Below are positions 4,619 to 60,272 of a stretch of DNA of 63,084 nucleotides, in pieces; the stretch's first letter is position 1; every line of letters starts with the position of its first letter. The notes below the pieces were generated by a model. It saw only the letters and a list, made by a program, of their open reading frames with translations. It made no database searches and was not told where the DNA came from. The position numbers were made by a program, and so were the translations under genes. This DNA comes from a bacterium (GTDB lineage: Bacteria > SAR324 > XYD2-FULL-50-16), in assembly GCA_024275165.1 (NCBI GenBank), contig JAJRZQ010000004.1, positions 1 through 63,084 on the forward strand. Reading direction: 5' to 3'.

Positions 4619-5076
4619 CAATAGCCCTCCAGGGTCAACTGGATCTGTAACCGATTGGTTTTCTTTAAGCTCTCTTTCATCTCTAGGCTTTGGATTTCAA
4701 TCGGGGGGCGGTTGGCCTCGAGACGATAGATCAGGCTGGTCGCTTGCGCCAAGGTAACCCCATCGAGTTGGAGCGCAATCCCCCCACCAGGACGGGTAGA
4801 GGTATTCGCCTTTTTTTTCACCCCCCCTTGGGCTAAAATTCGCTCCAATTGTTGGTTAAACGGGGCTTTTTGCCCCCCGCTTTTCGAGAGAAAGTAGAGC
4901 AGCTCTTCCCCTTTTTTCCGGATTTGCGCCATCTCTTTTCTCCGCTCGACAATTCGACTGCTCAAGCTCTCTTTGTAGTCGATAAGCGGCAAGAGAAGAA
5001 AGCGCAAGAACATTACGGGGAGGATAACACCCAAACCGAGGGAAAGGAGAACGCGTTCTCGTGGAGATAACTCCAT
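4618..5076 (-). CDS. gspM: Type II secretion system protein M (GspM-like)
   Basis: This small bitopic protein (152 residues) has a short cytoplasmic N-terminus ('MELSPRERVLLSLG'), one membrane helix (about 10-30), a coiled-coil linker and a ferredoxin-like periplasmic domain, the architecture of GspM. GspM partners GspL in the inner-membrane platform of the type II secretion machine. The ATG at 5076 overlaps the gspL stop (ATGA) and is preferred over the GTG one codon upstream. Confidence 0.78.
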   Translation of the reverse strand: MELSPRERVLLSLGLGVILPVMFLRFLLLPLIDYKESLSSRIVERRKEMAQIRKKGEELLYFLSKSGGQKAPFNQQLERILAQGGVKKKANTSTRPGGGIALQLDGVTLAQATSLIYRLEANRPPIEIQSLEMKESLKKTNRLQIQLTLEGY

Positions 5077-6419
5077 CACCCCCCCTTTTTATTTAAAGTA
5101 AGGGTAAACAACACCCGGTCTGCCGTACTCTGTTGACTCAATCTCAATGCGTACCCCGCGTCGGCAAATTTTTGCCGCACTTGCAGTCGCAATTTTTCAA
5201 ATTGATCCAAATTGGTCACCTCGCCTTGAACACTCAAAGCCGTGCTGGATAAAGTGAGACGAATAATCTTCAACCCTGGGGCCACTTTCTTGAATTCACT
5301 CAACCGCAATAAAAGCTCACTGGTCGGATAAGGCGTAGCGAGAAACCCTCTTGAGGCTCCTTCCCGCTTTTTAAGCTCCCTTAATTTTTCTTCAATCACC
5401 GATAAAGCTTTAGCCTCGGGCACCCCTGGCTGATATTGCCGAGCCAGGCCTCGAAACTCGGTATCCAAGCGATCCAATATTTGCTGCTCCTTGTAAAATT
5501 GATAGCCGGAACCAAAAACAAACAATCCCACAAAGGCCGCAGCCCAAAAAGCGACTTTTTTTAATTCCCTCCAGACCTCTTTGAATTGCCCTAAGTTGAG
5601 CCCCGAGCGACTTAAGAGGTTGATGCTTTTAGCCTGTAATTTTAGATCACAGAGTTCCGGACTAAAAATAAGCTTTAAATTGGGTTTTAAGGCCCGGTCC
5701 TTGAGCTGAATTTCATAATCCGCGTCAACGCTTAAAAGGGTTTTTAAGTTCTCCGCCAGGGTGACTTGGGGCAGACCCGTCTCTAAAGCCATCGCTTTTA
5801 AGCGTCGGCTCGTTTCGGCCAAGAGATGGAAAAAGCGGCCCTCCGCCTCTTCCGTACTGCCTTGGGAGAGCAAAAACCCCTTTTGAAAAAGAAGAAAGCG
5901 ACTCGCCTGGGGCTCAACCCAGAGGTAAATGCCCTCGGGCGGCGCGCCCTTTGATTTTAAAGATTCTTCCAATAAAGAGGTCAGGGGGATGACTCGTTCC
6001 AACTCGAATTTGGCTTGACGGAGCGACTCGGCTATAGAGGCTAAAATCTGTTTGGAAACCAGATAAACCCCCACTTGATACAGTTTTGCGTTTTTGCTCA
6101 CGCTACTGTGAAAACGAAAGAGAACTTCTTCGGGAGAAAGAAGCAAATGATTTTCCAACTCAAAACGCAACATCTTTCCCACCCCCGCCCCCCGAACTTT
6201 AGGCAAGTGAAAGGACTGATAACGAGCCAGACCGGGCCCTAAAATCAGGCGGACCTTACGAGACTCCGCTTGCTGACTAAAAGAAGAAATAAAGGAAGGT
6301 AAAGCCCGAATCAGGTCAGCTAGCTGCCCTGGTAAAGCTTGTTGGGCAAGGCTCTTTGAGTTTTCCGGCCTGAAACAGGCCAAATGATTCAAAGAGCAGT
6401 AAAGATGGGTCGCCGTCAT
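5076..6419 (-). CDS. gspL: Type II secretion system protein L (GspL/PilM-like)
   Basis: The product has 447 residues. The first ~270 form an actin-like ATPase-fold cytoplasmic domain of the GspL/PilM type ('RYQSFHLPKV', 'LRFELENHLLLSPEEVLFRF'). A membrane helix follows near 290-308, then a coiled coil and a small periplasmic domain. In the family, GspL recruits the ATPase GspE to the membrane. AAGGAG lies upstream of the ATG. accA lies directly upstream with a 9-base gap, so accA and gspLMN may share a transcript. No GspE or secretin lies nearby. Confidence 0.8.
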   Translation of the reverse strand: MTATHLYCSLNHLACFRPENSKSLAQQALPGQLADLIRALPSFISSFSQQAESRKVRLILGPGLARYQSFHLPKVRGAGVGKMLRFELENHLLLSPEEVLFRFHSSVSKNAKLYQVGVYLVSKQILASIAESLRQAKFELERVIPLTSLLEESLKSKGAPPEGIYLWVEPQASRFLLFQKGFLLSQGSTEEAEGRFFHLLAETSRRLKAMALETGLPQVTLAENLKTLLSVDADYEIQLKDRALKPNLKLIFSPELCDLKLQAKSINLLSRSGLNLGQFKEVWRELKKVAFWAAAFVGLFVFGSGYQFYKEQQILDRLDTEFRGLARQYQPGVPEAKALSVIEEKLRELKKREGASRGFLATPYPTSELLLRLSEFKKVAPGLKIIRLTLSSTALSVQGEVTNLDQFEKLRLQVRQKFADAGYALRLSQQSTADRVLFTLTLNKKGG

Positions 6420-6428
6420 GGGGACTCC

Positions 6429-7385
6429 TTAGCCCTCTGCGAACTCCCCCATTTTTCTGAACTTTTGGTAGCGGTCTTCTACCAATTGAGGCCCGGTGAG
6501 GCCTCGCAAGTCATTAAAATGGCTTAAAGCAGCTCGTTTGAGTTGGTCTAACGCTTCATCGGGCTTGACATGCGCCCCACCAAGAGGTTCGGGAATAATT
6601 TCATCAATGAGGTGAAAACTCAAGAGGTCTTGAGCGGAGTAGCGTAACGATTGGGCCGCTTCCTGGGCGCGCGTTCCATCGCCGAAGAGAATCCCGGCAC
6701 AGCCCTCGGGACTGATCACCGAATAAATGCTGTGCTCGTACATCAAAACCCGGTTGGCGACCCCGAGGGCAATCGCCCCCCCACTGCCGCCCTCACCGGT
6801 AACAATCGCGATAATCGGGGTCTCTAAGGCGGCCATTTCACGCAAACTAACGGCAATCGCTTCGGATTGCCCTCGCTCTTCCGCGCCGATTCCCGGATAA
6901 GCGCCGGGGGTGTCGATAAGGCTTAAAATAGGCACCTTAAAACGGCTGGCCATCCGCATGAGCCTTAAGGCTTTCCGGTAGCCCTCGGGATGGGGCATGC
7001 CAAAGTTGCGTTTGACATTATCTTGCGTGTTGCGGCCTTTTTGATGCCCCACCACCATGAAGGGCTGGCCGTCGATGCGGCAAAGACCGCCTATAATCGC
7101 CGGGTCATCGCGAAAATTACGGTCACCATGCAATTGCGTAAATTCCGTGGTGCAATGCTCAATAAAGTCTAAGGTATAGGGGCGTTTAGGGTGGCGAGCG
7201 AGCAGGGTTTTTTCCCAGGGGTTCAGGGTCGAGTAGGTTGTTTTTTCCAATTCCTTAGTTTGCCGCTCTAGCTTGTTGATCTCTTTGAGCAGTTTTTCAT
7301 CACCGCGGGTTTGCTGCTGCATCCTAAGCTCTTCGATTTTGCTTTTTAGAGCAAGGATCGGTTTTTCAAATTCGAGAATATACAT
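6429..7385 (-). CDS. accA: Acetyl-CoA carboxylase carboxyltransferase subunit alpha
   Basis: AccA, with AccD, transfers carboxyl from biotin to acetyl-CoA in the first committed step of fatty-acid synthesis. It has 318 residues, the usual length. Diagnostic blocks are present: 'NPWEKTLLARHPKRPYTLDFIE', 'DDPAIIGGL', 'SLIDTPGAYPGIGAEERGQ' and 'EGGSGGAIALGVANRVLM'. The start 'MYILEFEKPI' aligns with the family N-terminus. GGAG lies only two bases before the ATG, which is unusually close. A terminator separates it from cfpA upstream, and gspL follows downstream. Confidence 0.97.
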   Translation of the reverse strand: MYILEFEKPILALKSKIEELRMQQQTRGDEKLLKEINKLERQTKELEKTTYSTLNPWEKTLLARHPKRPYTLDFIEHCTTEFTQLHGDRNFRDDPAIIGGLCRIDGQPFMVVGHQKGRNTQDNVKRNFGMPHPEGYRKALRLMRMASRFKVPILSLIDTPGAYPGIGAEERGQSEAIAVSLREMAALETPIIAIVTGEGGSGGAIALGVANRVLMYEHSIYSVISPEGCAGILFGDGTRAQEAAQSLRYSAQDLLSFHLIDEIIPEPLGGAHVKPDEALDQLKRAALSHFNDLRGLTGPQLVEDRYQKFRKMGEFAEG

Positions 7386-7393
7386 AGCTCCAT

Positions 7394-7429
7394 AAAAAAA
7401 GCCCTTAAAAACAAGTCTTAAGGGCTTTT
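7394..7429 (-). terminator. Intrinsic terminator downstream of cfpA
   Basis: GCCCTTAA (7401-7408) and TTAAGGGC (7418-7425), extended by AAAA/TTTT, form a 12-bp stem. On the minus strand it is followed by seven T residues (7400-7394). It lies between the cfpA stop and the accA start and would end cfpA transcription. The symmetric A/T flanks could make it bidirectional. Confidence 0.75.
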
Positions 7430-7446: not shown

Positions 7447-9261
7447 CTAATCGACAGTCGCGAAAACCTCTGCCCCAGAGCGAGTCACATCGGTCTCACT
7501 GGTAAAGGGGACGATTCCGGTTTCGCTGAATCCTTGAGAGACAGAGTGAAGAAACTCATTGATCACATTCGACATGTTCATCATGGTGGTCTTCTTTTTC
7601 TTAATACTCACAATGTCGATATCCAACAAAAGCCCCGGTTGAATATGGAAGGGATTGATTTGGTTTGCGAAGCTATCGTACTGCTCACGAACAAAGCGAA
7701 GGCGCGCCTCGAAAACCTGACGGACCTCATTGCTCTCTCGTCCAAAGGCCTTTTCCATTTTTTCCAGCATCAGAGGGAAACGGGCACCCAATTCTTCTAA
7801 TTCCGCTTCACCTGTTGGGTTTTCCTGGTCCACAACCGTGGGCTCGGGCTGAATGAAATTGATTTCATTCCAACGGCTTTCAGGGGCGCTGGCTAGGGAC
7901 TCGTCTTTAACCTGACCTTCGCTGAGGATTTTTTGAGCCAAGCTGTGCCAGTCGTCTTTACCGTGTTTTTGTAAGCTTTCTTTATAGATCCCTTCGCAAA
8001 CATCCCACAGGTGGTAGGCCTCTCGTTTCAATTCCTCGAGCTGGGTTTTGTAGGTTTCCCTTAGGCCCTGCAACTGATCTTGATCATAGTAAACCAATCG
8101 CAGCTTATAGCGCTCATCGGGAAGGCGAGAGGCATCTTCCTCTTCATATTCACGAATTAAGCATTCGCGGGCATTTTTGAAATTTTCGATGTATTGATAC
8201 CCCATCTTGGAGGTATCTAAGATACTGGTAATGGCATTGACCGCGCTGTTGAACCCACGATTACGGATATTTTGGTTATCAATGATTTTTTTGATGTTTT
8301 CTCGAATGTGGAGGGCGTCAAAATCGGTTGCGTCGATTTCCGCTTGGATGTTCTCCACCGCGTCATAGAACTTCTTGGCTACATACTGGTAGCGAATGCT
8401 GTCTTCGGATTCATCGTCCGAAACATATTTGTTCATGACCCGGAACTTTTCAAAAAGGCGGCTGGTTTCGTTTAATTCAGCGGCGCCCTCTTCTTGGAGT
8501 CTTTTATTGGTATCTTCAATCTCGGCGTCAATCAGGCGTTGAATGTGCTTGGCCACCACATCTTTAATCAGGCTGGCTACGGGCACCTGATAGTGGTAGA
8601 TAGGGCTGATCAATTCAGAGTCATGAATGGCAATGGAGAGTTTTAAATCCATTACATTTTTTGGCCTGCGAGGGTTATCGCGAAAACTGCATTTGGCAAT
8701 GGCATAGCTGTTTTCACCGCGGATAAAGGCGCCGACATCGGACTTTTCCTTCAACAGGGCATTGGTGTGATCCTCGATTTCAGAGATGCCCCTTTGAATA
8801 TGACTTTGCATCTGCCCAAACATGTTCACCACGGAGCGCTCGATCTCTCCCGTATTTAAGGTGCCGGCCCCGGCGACCTTGTCAATGATGTCGGTGATTT
8901 CTTTGGGGGTGTAGCGATTGAGGATGCGAACCTCTTCTTTATCCACCAAGTCGCGAAACTTTTTGCCCATTTCGTCTTCCATCGTAACGATGTAGCGATT
9001 GAGCATGTTTTGGAAGTCTTGGTTGAAATAATTGTGGAGCTTCGATTTAATCGAGCCCATGACATCTAGTTTCTCCAACACCTCAGGGGGAAGCTTCGCA
9101 TGGATGTGGTTGATAACTTTATCCACCTCTTCATCAATGATGTGCTTTGCCTCCTCGTATTCATTCCGATCGTCTCGATTGATCGAGTTTCGGCTGCCCA
9201 CGGCGCTGGGCTTTTCGGGGTGAATAAAATTGGGTCCCCGAGTGATAGAGTCACGAGCCAT
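7447..9261 (-). CDS. cfpA: Cytoplasmic filament protein A-like (CfpA)
   Basis: The 604-residue protein is soluble, acidic and largely helical, with no signal peptide. Stretches such as 'LNRYIVTMEDEMGKKF', 'LNRYTPKEITDIIDKVAG', 'IRGENSYAIAKCSFRDN', 'SELISPIYHYQV' and 'NPFHIQPGLLLDIDI' match, from memory, the treponemal CfpA family. That protein (about 680 residues) forms a ribbon of cytoplasmic filaments below the membrane. AGAGGT precedes the ATG. It is transcribed alone, with a putative promoter at 9357-9385 and a terminator at 7394-7429. Lineage and function in this organism are inference; an alignment with Treponema CfpA would decide. Confidence 0.75.
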   Translation of the reverse strand: MARDSITRGPNFIHPEKPSAVGSRNSINRDDRNEYEEAKHIIDEEVDKVINHIHAKLPPEVLEKLDVMGSIKSKLHNYFNQDFQNMLNRYIVTMEDEMGKKFRDLVDKEEVRILNRYTPKEITDIIDKVAGAGTLNTGEIERSVVNMFGQMQSHIQRGISEIEDHTNALLKEKSDVGAFIRGENSYAIAKCSFRDNPRRPKNVMDLKLSIAIHDSELISPIYHYQVPVASLIKDVVAKHIQRLIDAEIEDTNKRLQEEGAAELNETSRLFEKFRVMNKYVSDDESEDSIRYQYVAKKFYDAVENIQAEIDATDFDALHIRENIKKIIDNQNIRNRGFNSAVNAITSILDTSKMGYQYIENFKNARECLIREYEEEDASRLPDERYKLRLVYYDQDQLQGLRETYKTQLEELKREAYHLWDVCEGIYKESLQKHGKDDWHSLAQKILSEGQVKDESLASAPESRWNEINFIQPEPTVVDQENPTGEAELEELGARFPLMLEKMEKAFGRESNEVRQVFEARLRFVREQYDSFANQINPFHIQPGLLLDIDIVSIKKKKTTMMNMSNVINEFLHSVSQGFSETGIVPFTSETDVTRSGAEVFATVD

Positions 9262-9356
9262 AATACCTCTTTAGGTCAAGGGTTTCTCAAGTCTTGCGGG
9301 CTGAGAAGCAAGCTTTGGAAAGGTCAATGATTCTCGAAAGAATTCGATTAGCTTAA

Positions 9357-9385
9357 GTTTTATCAGGCCATGACGCAAATTGCAA
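9357..9385 (-). promoter_or_regulatory. Putative sigma70-type promoter of cfpA
   Basis: On the minus strand TTGCAA (9385-9380) and TAAAAC (9362-9357) are spaced by 17 bases, about 95 bases upstream of the cfpA ATG. Each box matches consensus at four of six positions. The -35 box abuts the stop codon of the upstream peptidase gene. Confidence 0.4.
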
Positions 9386-12118
9386 CTATTTAGCACCCAG
9401 GTAGCGAACATAAATCGCTTTCTTCGCGTCTACATTCTGGTCGTCCCGACTGACAATAATGATACGGTTCACTTTATCTTCCAATTCCAAGTCGAGGCTT
9501 AATTTCACCTCACCCCGCTGGTTTTGCTTGAGGTAGTTTTTATAATAGATTTTTTTATTGTTCAGCAACACGAAGAGATCCTTGACCCCGCCTTGGTCAA
9601 AGACCGTCCCGCTAAGATGTAGTTTGCGGCTTTTACTTTGGTTGGCGACTTGGCTGAGGGTGATTTGCGGAGCGTCGTTTTTTAAATCCAATCGACTCAA
9701 GGGGAGCTTGAGCTTTTGATTGATGCCCGCTAGGGGAAAGGTGCCGTCAATAATATCTAAAGAGAGGTCGAGATTGCCATCTAACGGTTTCTCATGCAGT
9801 TCAAACAAAAACCGCGCCTTGGCCTCTTCCCCTGGTTTTAAAGGTTTAAGGCTTTGGCGGCCCTGCTTTAAAAAGATATGGTTGCCTTCTCCGTTTTTCA
9901 AAAGCAGGGTGAGTTTACCGCTTTGGCCTTGGCCCTGATTTTTTACGGTGAGTTCCAGGGTCACCTTGTCGCCTGCTTCGATTCGTTTGGCCTTTTGTTT
10001 GATTTCATAGACAAAAGAAGGCCGGGCCTTTTCTACAATGGCCAGTTCGATCTGATCTCGGTGCAGGCTGCGCTTTTTCCCGTCTTGGAATTCAAAACGG
10101 ATGATATCGCTCCTGCTGAAGCCCCCTGAGGTAATCTGCAAGGGAATGTACCATTTGCGCGCTTGCCCGGGGGCAAGGCGACCAAAGGCGAATTGACGAT
10201 CATCCAAAGCGTTGTTTTCACTTTTGCTGACGGCGATTAAACGGTCTAGAGTCTTTTTCCCGATATTTTTGGCTTCGAGGTAGAGTTTCAAATCCGCGTC
10301 CGCGGGGATGGGGCCCCTATGCTTTCGATATTTCCCATCCTTGCCCTTGAGCTCAAACCAAGCCCGACTCAAAATGCGAGAGCCGGAGCGACTCGGGTAG
10401 GGCTTCCAATTGATGCCGAGCTCGGCAAAGCGCTTTTCTACCTTTAGGGTCTGCTCTGCTTCTTCTTTTTGAAAATAAGAGAACGAGCTTTTTAAAAGCC
10501 GCTTTTGCCCTCCCTTAAAGTCATAGGGGTTTTTATAACCCCTGCGTTGGTTTTGAAATAAAATCTGAATCGCTGACTGGAGGAGGTGATCCTTTTTCCG
10601 TTGCAACTCAGCCAACTCTTTCGGGGAGAGGTCTTCTGCTTTTTTTGCCTCTTTCGTATCTTCAACCAGATAAAAGGTGGATAGGTCTGGGTTTTCTGCT
10701 CGGTCCCCCCATTCGGCAAAGTTTTGCTCCAATTCGTTTTCACCGATGTCTTCTTTTGCCGGGGTGAGGCGCAAGAACTTCGGCGTAACCTGCACCGGAT
10801 AAACCTCAATGTGCGGAGCCACCCCCACCGATTGAATGCTGTGATTGCCCGGGGTTAGGTATTTCGACATGGTGATTTTCAAACCCGACCCGCCCGCCAT
10901 GGGGATGATTTGCTGCACACTGCCCTTGCCAAAGGTGCGACGCCCCATCACCACGGCCCGGCCATGGGCCTTTAGAGCGGCGGTGACGATCTCGCTGGCG
11001 GAAGCCGAACCGTTGTTCACCAAGATGATAATCGGGAAGTCGAGCAGGCTGCTCGGCCAACTGGCATGCATGCTGCGGATGCTTTTCGGGTCGAGCCCCG
11101 CGGTGGAAACAATGACCCCCTTATCCAAAAAGCGATCCGAAATGGCAATCGCTTGTTGCAACAAGCCACCGGGGTTGTTTCTCAAATCTAAAATCAAACC
11201 TTGAAAGCTGGTTAGATCCGCGTCCAATTCAGACAAGGCCTCGTTCATCTCATCGAGGCTGCTTTTCCCAAAGGTTTTAAGCTTAATATAACCGACGGTC
11301 TTGCCTTTGTCTTCAAAGCGATGACTCTCCACCGAATTGATGGTAATCACCGCGCGGGTCAACACAAAGGGCCTGGGCTTGGAAAAGCCGTCGCGCAAAA
11401 TATAGACCGTCACCTGGGTGCCGGGCTTCCCTTTCAGTTTCGCCACCGCCTCACTCAAAGAGATATTGATGGTCGACTCGTCACCGATCTGCATGATCCG
11501 GTCTTTCGGGTGCAGCCCCGCCTTGGACGCGGGCGTATCGTCAATGGGGCTGATAATCGTAAGCTGGCCCTCGCGCAAACCGATCATCATGCCCACTCCG
11601 CCATAGTTGCCGGTGGTCGATTGGTTGAAATCGGAATAAACATCGGGAACCAACAGCATGGTATGGGGGTCGAGCTTTTTTAAAAAGCCGTTGATCAAGG
11701 CGTAGTCTACATCTTCAAGGTTTTCCCCCGGTTCAAGGTGCTCTTTGGTAAAGTGGGAAACCTTTTGCAGAATCTTGTTTAAGGCGAGGGAGGTTTTCGG
11801 CTTAGCAAAAATAAACTCCTTGCTGAATTGATCCACACTGACGGTGACCTTGAGTTTACCTGACTTTTGATTGAGCCGGGTCATCACCGGAACCACCGAG
11901 ATGGAAAGCCGCTCTAAGCTGCCGGCCAGCATCACCTCGGGTTTTAAGCGGCTCGCATCGACATAACTCCGATTCACGGTGCTGAGTACGGCGGGAATCA
12001 GGTCTGATTTGGGGATAAAGCGTTCCGCCTGTAAAGAGCCGGAAGCCCAAACCCCCAGAGAAGCCAAGAGGATTAAACCTAAAAAAATACTTTTTTTCAT
12101 GTGTCGTTGCAGTTTCAC
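9386..12118 (-). CDS. Secreted S41 C-terminal-processing peptidase with PDZ and Ig-like domains
   Basis: A 910-residue exported serine protease of the CtpA/Prc class. It has a signal peptide (about 7-31), a PDZ domain (about 170-250) and an S41 core. Serine 373 in 'NNGSASASE' and lysine 398 in 'FGKGSVQQ' form the Ser-Lys dyad with the family's 25-residue spacing. Residues after ~560 form beta-rich, CARDB/Ig-like domains not found in ordinary Ctp enzymes. The architecture resembles the large myxobacterial MXAN_5808-type peptidases. The start is uncertain: GTG at 12118, or ATG at 12100, which begins a more typical signal peptide (MKKSIF). Likely role: periplasmic envelope quality control. Confidence 0.85.
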   Translation of the reverse strand: MKLQRHMKKSIFLGLILLASLGVWASGSLQAERFIPKSDLIPAVLSTVNRSYVDASRLKPEVMLAGSLERLSISVVPVMTRLNQKSGKLKVTVSVDQFSKEFIFAKPKTSLALNKILQKVSHFTKEHLEPGENLEDVDYALINGFLKKLDPHTMLLVPDVYSDFNQSTTGNYGGVGMMIGLREGQLTIISPIDDTPASKAGLHPKDRIMQIGDESTINISLSEAVAKLKGKPGTQVTVYILRDGFSKPRPFVLTRAVITINSVESHRFEDKGKTVGYIKLKTFGKSSLDEMNEALSELDADLTSFQGLILDLRNNPGGLLQQAIAISDRFLDKGVIVSTAGLDPKSIRSMHASWPSSLLDFPIIILVNNGSASASEIVTAALKAHGRAVVMGRRTFGKGSVQQIIPMAGGSGLKITMSKYLTPGNHSIQSVGVAPHIEVYPVQVTPKFLRLTPAKEDIGENELEQNFAEWGDRAENPDLSTFYLVEDTKEAKKAEDLSPKELAELQRKKDHLLQSAIQILFQNQRRGYKNPYDFKGGQKRLLKSSFSYFQKEEAEQTLKVEKRFAELGINWKPYPSRSGSRILSRAWFELKGKDGKYRKHRGPIPADADLKLYLEAKNIGKKTLDRLIAVSKSENNALDDRQFAFGRLAPGQARKWYIPLQITSGGFSRSDIIRFEFQDGKKRSLHRDQIELAIVEKARPSFVYEIKQKAKRIEAGDKVTLELTVKNQGQGQSGKLTLLLKNGEGNHIFLKQGRQSLKPLKPGEEAKARFLFELHEKPLDGNLDLSLDIIDGTFPLAGINQKLKLPLSRLDLKNDAPQITLSQVANQSKSRKLHLSGTVFDQGGVKDLFVLLNNKKIYYKNYLKQNQRGEVKLSLDLELEDKVNRIIIVSRDDQNVDAKKAIYVRYLGAK

Positions 12119-59852: not shown

Positions 59853-60272
59853 ATGGCCAGCGAGAAAAAAACCCAAAAAACGACCAGTTTTCTCTCTGAA
59901 AATATCGAGTTGAAGGGAAACCTCAAACTGGAAGGAGGCATCCGCATTGACGGCCACTTCAGTGGGAATATTCAAGCAGGGAATGTGGTGTACCTTGGGG
60001 AAAGCGCCCGAGTAGAAGGCTCTTTGGTCGCAGAGGGCTTGATCTCCAGCGGGGTTTTGATCGGAGAGGTGCGCGCCAGAGAAACCGTAAAAATCAATCA
60101 TCCCGGCAGCCTGAAGGCGCAAGTAGAAGCGGCGGCCTTGGTGCTGGACGAAAATGTATTTTTTCAAGGGCAATGTCGACTGATCGAGCCGGAACAACAA
60201 AGCAAACCCAAATTGGCAAAGCCGCGGTTCCCTCGAATCGCGATCCCCAATCGGGAAGAAAATAAAAAATAA
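59853..60272 (+). CDS. Bactofilin family cytoskeletal protein
   Basis: A 139-residue protein with the bactofilin beta-helix core: 'IELKGNLKLEGGIRIDGHFSGNIQAGNVVYLGESARVEGSL' and repeated 6-7 residue turns, with a flexible basic Pro/Lys-rich tail ('KPKLAKPRFPRIAIP'). Bactofilins form stable membrane-linked filaments. In Myxococcus they position ParAB, so the direct parA-parB-bactofilin order here suggests a similar link. It lies six bases after parB and is last in the unit. Confidence 0.92.
   Translation: MASEKKTQKTTSFLSENIELKGNLKLEGGIRIDGHFSGNIQAGNVVYLGESARVEGSLVAEGLISSGVLIGEVRARETVKINHPGSLKAQVEAAALVLDENVFFQGQCRLIEPEQQSKPKLAKPRFPRIAIPNREENKK

Follow-up and report, generated by a model that had tools for sequence, protein, structure and literature searches.

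A CfpA-family filament gene in a SAR324 genome, and a gene cassette that its relatives share with spirochaetes

The DNA analysed here, referred to from this point on as the window, is a 63,084-nucleotide stretch of the bacterial genome G000 (assembly GCA_024275165.1, contig JAJRZQ010000004.1). On its minus strand an ORF scan finds a frame open across 604 codons which, judged by its sequence, is a real member of the CfpA family of cytoplasmic filament proteins (Table 1). The window also encodes an Omp85/BamA-type protein, UvrA and GyrA. An earlier note on this stretch had set the gene in a context of type II secretion and BamA; the Omp85/BamA-type protein stands, while the GspL assignment is a Pfam match just short of its cut-off. 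The same note's proposal of two filament systems holds at the genetic level, with a bactofilin gene in the window and three CfpA loci in the genome, and the formation of filaments in cells is presumed. In all seven loci of named relatives (L006-L012), the S41 peptidase gene adjoins the window-type cfpA, with the gspL-like cluster (c2) on the other side. Between cfpA and the gspL-like gene, accA is present in the window genome, L008 and L012; the ORF maps of the other five loci (L006, L007 and L009-L011) do not show it there.

Table 1. Genes and signals of the window at and around cfpA, with the second candidate filament gene
Feature	Position	Strand	Basis
gspL-like type II secretion gene	5076..6419	minus	PF12693 27.1 bits, just under cut-off 29.6
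accA, acetyl-CoA carboxylase alpha subunit, 3' neighbour of cfpA	6429..7385	minus	PF03255 461 bits
Intrinsic terminator-like hairpin and U-run, between cfpA and accA	7397..7429 (about)	minus	folding
cfpA, cytoplasmic filament protein, 'alpha' paralogue, 604 aa	7447..9261	minus	ORF and NF040882 match
Intergenic gap 5' of cfpA, 124 bases	9262..9385	minus	no promoter recognised
Shine-Dalgarno-like AAGAGG, 5' of the cfpA ATG	9266..9271	minus	read from sequence
S41 peptidase with PDZ domain, 5' neighbour of cfpA	9386..12118	minus	PF03572, PF00595
Bactofilin, second candidate filament protein	59853..60272	plus	PF04519 78.6 bits, cut-off 27.9

Against NF040882 (NCBIfam, cytoplasmic filament protein CfpA), an equivalog profile with a curated cut-off of 500 bits, the window protein scores 744.7 bits (E 9.4e-224), and the match spans residues 6-590 (585 residues) and profile positions 2-592 of 605. 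The label 'CfpA-like' given in the earlier note is thus borne out, with significant similarity across most of the length. Identity is 65-69% to SAR324/Lambdaproteobacteria proteins and about 50% to spirochaete proteins; the protein can be aligned with 45 spirochaete CfpA sequences at the latter level, and the invariant positions are scattered along most of the alignment. A Pfam search returned no family above its cut-off, and the matches beneath (IFT20 at E 0.006, and others) were discarded. A sequence search of the PDB found no relative up to E 10, and the AlphaFold (AF2) model is poor (pLDDT 58.8).

The signals flanking the gene are of unequal quality. Folding supports the terminator that had been claimed for cfpA, as the hairpin reaches -18.7 kcal/mol with a z of -3.81 and is equalled by 1 of 200 shuffles; a terminator pattern scan of the window gave 14 matches against 13.0 in shuffles, and this hairpin is not among them. 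The companion claim, that cfpA has its own promoter, did not hold up: no sigma-70-like site was recognised on the minus strand of the intergenic gap, in a scan that performs at chance level across the window (6 sites against 6.0 expected). Nor does the gap show visible conservation among seven relatives. The promoter must lie within the gap or further upstream, and the cfpA transcript probably covers this gene alone, stopping at its own terminator.

Genome comparisons place the host as a SAR324/Lambdaproteobacteria bacterium and not a spirochaete. The genome (2.69 Mb, 98.35% complete) belongs to a family, f1, that includes contigs named Candidatus Lambdaproteobacteria and SAR324 cluster bacterium; the cfpA stretches of L006, L008, L009 and L010 are identical to those of G050, G051, G048 and G047, respectively. 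The window GyrA is 71% identical to that of four genomes that belong to the family or bear the SAR324 name (one genome, under two handles, accounts for two of them). Identity falls to 57-58% with family f3, 54-55% with f2 and f4, and 43-48% with six spirochaetes; against G057 the protein matches in two pieces, at 66 and 85%. FlaA, the spirochaete flagellar sheath protein, was found in none of the 52 genomes of the SAR324 phylum and in none of five genomes reached via SAR324 loci, with five of five spirochaete controls positive. Of the two alternatives that the earlier note had offered, an unusual spirochaete-like genome is contradicted by both GyrA and FlaA, and a wider range for CfpA proved correct.

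This wider range takes in 20 of the 52 genomes of the phylum, namely all ten of f1 and all ten of f3; the single f2 genome and the 31 f4 genomes have no CfpA. Three separate cfpA loci occur in 16 of the 20. Of the others, G007 has one whole cfpA and two fragments at contig ends, and G001, G043 and G044, which are 68-79% complete, have two loci each. The window genome has three, the other two copies sharing 44% and 39% identity with the window copy. Its third copy (G000:C3:90432-92161; L116:6415-8249) is split over two frames and forms the longest end branch of the CfpA tree; either decay or an assembly error would explain the split. The possibility that CfpA goes together with flagella in this phylum was considered and rejected, since FliF is present in 48 of the 52 genomes, CfpA-free families included. 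To illustrate, 30 of the 32 SAR324 genomes without CfpA have FliF (29/31 in f4, G011-G041; 1/1 in f2, G042).

Among Spirochaetota, 137 of 392 sampled genomes carry CfpA. With up to three candidates scored per genome, only one spirochaete genome (G369) among the matches listed has two full-length copies. In a draw of 383 relatives, CfpA matched solely in the same 20 SAR324 genomes; if all 52 genomes of the phylum belong to that draw, none of the roughly 331 genomes beyond the phylum has the protein.

An unrooted tree was computed from 103 CfpA rows, 54 from SAR324 and 49 from spirochaetes, the latter being every third or fifth locus together with divergent ones; SAR324 rows shorter than 450 aa and spirochaete rows shorter than 500 aa were left out. 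This phylogeny, which the earlier note had proposed as a check, places the SAR324 and spirochaete proteins on opposite sides of one branch with an SH-aLRT of 100. The window-type copy of f1 and the gspL-adjacent copy of f3 make up a single clade (SH-aLRT 99), and separate clades are formed by the cassette-bearing copies of f1 and f3 (see below), by the third copy of f1 and by the third copy of f3. From these clades, the split into three types of paralogue is probably older than the split between the two families. The tree resolves its deep order poorly and includes some long rows; the other two copies of G000 sit on long branches. One spirochaete match, G272:C1:2249885-2251645 (L170), contains one internal stop, lies within a 2159-aa open frame and also has a long branch.

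Many cfpA genes of both phyla are followed by two further genes, c5 and then c3. In spirochaetes the cassette is built on the single cfpA; in SAR324 it is built on a different copy from the window type, and is found in 16 of the 20 CfpA-bearing genomes (10/10 in f3, 6/10 in f1). Among the f1 genomes, the corresponding cfpA locus of G000 and G049 is without c5 and c3, and in G043 and G044 the cassette could not be judged. A search of G000 for c3 gave nothing beyond weak matches, at around 22 bits and within a single 582-aa frame, and a search for c5, run without a positive control, gave no match; G000 thus appears to have lost the cassette partners. The spirochaete survey covered 73 loci (L013-L085), selected for matching the window protein most closely. 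Both partners are present in 54 of the 55 loci with at least 4.2 kb of downstream sequence, the exception being L018, and of the 18 loci with less, ten have both, five c5 only and three neither. Each of the 64 spirochaete c3 matches has the same orientation as cfpA. Among divergent spirochaete regions, L173-L175 have neither partner within several kb, and L176, L177, L180 and L181 have c5 with no c3 nearby. The presence of the cassette in many relatives from the two phyla suggests that dedicated partners or regulators usually accompany the filament.

The c3 protein is related to pyruvate phosphate dikinase (PPDK). Three SAR324 members score 270.6, 465.5 and 577.3 bits against TIGR01828, all under its cut-off of 843.45. 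Residues were compared in an alignment of 77 c3 sequences (62 spirochaete, 9 f3, 6 f1), rows shorter than 780 aa having been dropped. The ATP-site positions follow what we take to be the numbering of C. symbiosum PPDK; a literature search turned up no paper giving these residues. At the ATP site, none of the 77 sequences retains Lys22 or Glu323. Arg92 is replaced in 62/62 spirochaete, 9/9 f3 and, depending on the alignment, four or five of six f1 sequences, and Arg337 is retained in 46 of the 62 from spirochaetes. The phospho-histidine, His455, is retained throughout (77/77), and the PEP-site residues R561, N768 and D769 are retained in every spirochaete (62/62) and f1 (6/6) sequence. As a control, nine canonical spirochaete PPDKs all keep Lys22 and Glu323, together with every other ATP-site, histidine and PEP-site residue tested on them; they form a clade apart from c3 with a support of 100. 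The support for SAR324 c3 as a single group is just 10. In f3 (L118-L125 and relatives), R561 and D769 are lost in nine of nine sequences, besides the ATP site, and with these PEP-site residues gone as well the f3 protein is probably a dead scaffold, or pseudoenzyme.

The c5 proteins of f3 and of spirochaetes align as one family (f3 c5 against the spirochaete profile, hhalign probability 100). A model of a spirochaete member (pLDDT 82.9) has two domains with a predicted beta-alpha-beta-beta-alpha-beta-alpha topology. HPr accounts for nearly all of the top Foldseek rows for this model (best E 0.014, probability 1.00, TMt up to 0.75), and VIA-align also places HPr first, with a Z of 8.7 over residues 72-166, the N-terminal domain; the C-terminal domain aligns to HPr with a Z of about 6, a level which unrelated rows equal there. 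It is this C-terminal domain that carries a His immediately ahead of the first helix, and it does so in every one of the 116 complete ORFs (a strict pattern recovers 115, and L079 was recognised by eye); the active His15 of HPr occupies the same spot in the available text of PMC8509676. Homology of c5 to HPr by sequence was considered and rejected: a PF00381 search of 18 genomes at E up to 10 left c5 unmatched while detecting true HPr in 18/18, and hhalign gave non-significant probabilities of 5-7% for the C-terminal and 1.5% for the N-terminal domain. The protein is HPr-like by predicted fold only. In the literature, no link between the cassette and HPr was found among the best 10 of 544 entries.

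The cassette has been encountered in treponemes, as far as the accessible parts of the sources go. TDE0842 (cfpA), TDE0843 (conserved hypothetical) and TDE0844 ('pyruvate phosphate dikinase, putative') are listed as repressed in T. denticola co-cultures (PMC3914990), and TP0746 is treated as a glycolytic PPDK enzyme (PMC10013896), for which the available portion describes no assay. In our sample, cfpA, c5 and c3 are consecutive on one strand of G117, the c3 gene being L210:4672-7377 on the minus strand. G117 is probably T. pallidum. Its best PPDK-family E among the matches listed is 2.4e-183; since an E of 5e-173 corresponded to 577 bits in SAR324, this match would lie well below the cut-off of 843. 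If the coordinates are equal, both TP0746 positions in the available portion of PMC10013896 fall within the G117 c3 gene, and the gene annotated TP0746 (Ppdk) would seem to be this cassette c3, degraded ATP site included.

Taken together, the window gene is, with good probability, a genuine cfpA of a SAR324/Lambdaproteobacteria genome, and its product most likely a subunit of a cytoplasmic filament ribbon as in treponemes. By analogy, the ribbon would run along the cell and act structurally in cell division and in the arrangement of chromosomes; a treponemal cfpA mutant is described, in the accessible part of PMC3398590, as having no cytoplasmic filaments, with chromosome condensation and filamentation. 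The three SAR324 paralogues would be filament subunits that assemble into one or more related filaments, and the window copy is best read as a stand-alone subunit. In keeping with this, the window-type copy is conserved across two SAR324 families. In favour of spirochaete DNA contaminating the assembly, or of a recent transfer from a spirochaete, CfpA is described, in the available text of PMC2776988, as exclusive to spirochaetes, and its cross-phylum identity of about 50% slightly exceeds the 43-48% of GyrA. Such an origin is most improbable, given that cfpA is embedded in a 63-kb contig and flanked as in named SAR324 MAGs, that 20 genomes of the phylum carry the gene, and that the tree places no SAR324 sequence within the spirochaete group, a fully supported branch parting the phyla. 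One ancient transfer, cassette included, from the ancestor of one phylum to that of the other has about an even chance of being correct, the alternative being vertical inheritance from a common ancestor. The absence of CfpA from f2, from f4 and from the other relatives in the draw of 383 (some 331 genomes, on the proviso given above), the linked three-gene cassette common to both phyla and the same slight excess over GyrA identity all speak for transfer; nevertheless, the other phyla are thinly sampled, and an unrooted tree cannot tell direction, nor transfer from loss.

A change of function is a further consideration, in that the SAR324 proteins could derive from CfpA and no longer form filaments, serving as a repurposed scaffold. 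The triplication, the two copies on long branches and the failure to find cassette partners in G000 are compatible with this, and the long branches and the split third copy suggest that part of the G000 system may be decaying. Repurposing is nonetheless unlikely for proteins whose window-type copies are 65-69% identical between SAR324 genera and about 50% identical to spirochaete CfpA, with widely spread invariant positions. Beyond the filament subunit itself, cfpA, c5 and c3 could constitute a functional unit in which c3 takes phosphate from PEP on its His and passes it to the HPr-like c5, regulating filament assembly. This is possible, if on the unlikely side. Order and strand are kept in 54 of the 55 sufficiently long spirochaete loci and in 16 of 20 SAR324 genomes; c3 universally keeps its phospho-His and, in spirochaetes and f1, its PEP site, having lost the ATP-site Lys/Glu that all nine canonical PPDKs keep; c5 has predicted HPr-like folds with an invariant His before the first helix; and the T. 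denticola trio TDE0842-44 is listed together as repressed (PMC3914990, in the part available). Against it, the c5-HPr sequence similarity is not significant, several divergent spirochaete loci are without one or both partners, and adjacency is not interaction. The degraded PEP site also makes the f3 sequences misfit a phosphorelay, unless the relay was lost there. A broader and more doubtful proposal is that both phyla regulate their cytoplasmic filament by a PEP phosphorelay of its own, from a PPDK-like c3 lacking its ATP site to an HPr-like c5; TP0746 would then be a filament-linked protein and not a working dikinase, and parts of SAR324, including G000, would have lost the relay and kept a multiplied subunit.

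By profile and phylogeny, CfpA is present in SAR324, having previously been thought confined to spirochaetes, at least in the accessible text of PMC2776988. No report of CfpA from another phylum was found among the literature matches listed, and the search gave none of a cytoplasmic filament in SAR324. Its occurrence there, usually in triplicate and without FlaA, implies that the filament is separable from the spirochaete body plan, and a comparison of SAR324 with spirochaetes could reveal what the filament does. The shared cassette names two candidate partner proteins, c5 and c3. It also yields a prediction, namely that the T. pallidum gene taken as a glycolytic PPDK (PMC10013896, in the portion available) is impaired at its ATP site and associated with the filament.

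Among known systems, the closest is the Treponema CfpA (NF040882; T. pallidum TPANIC_0748, T. denticola TDE0842), which the window protein resembles in its full-length match, its identity of about 50% and many invariant blocks. It differs in length (about 604 aa against 646-702 aa in spirochaetes), in usually having three paralogues where spirochaetes mostly have one, and, unlike Treponema cfpA, in being encoded by a copy without cassette partners; its host has no FlaA, whereas in treponemes a periplasmic-flagella body plan accompanies CfpA. The bactofilin (PF04519) of the window is likewise a filament protein but by profile an unrelated family, and the window CfpA gives no bactofilin match. 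The c3 of relatives is homologous to PPDK (TIGR01828, 270-577 bits) and has the phospho-histidine motif, but lies under the cut-off of 843 and has lost ATP-site residues. Similarly, c5 resembles HPr (PF00381) in predicted domain topology, Foldseek probability and VIA-align score for residues 72-166; it differs in having two such domains without significant sequence similarity, and in carrying the invariant His solely in the C-terminal one, the weaker match to HPr (Z of about 6).
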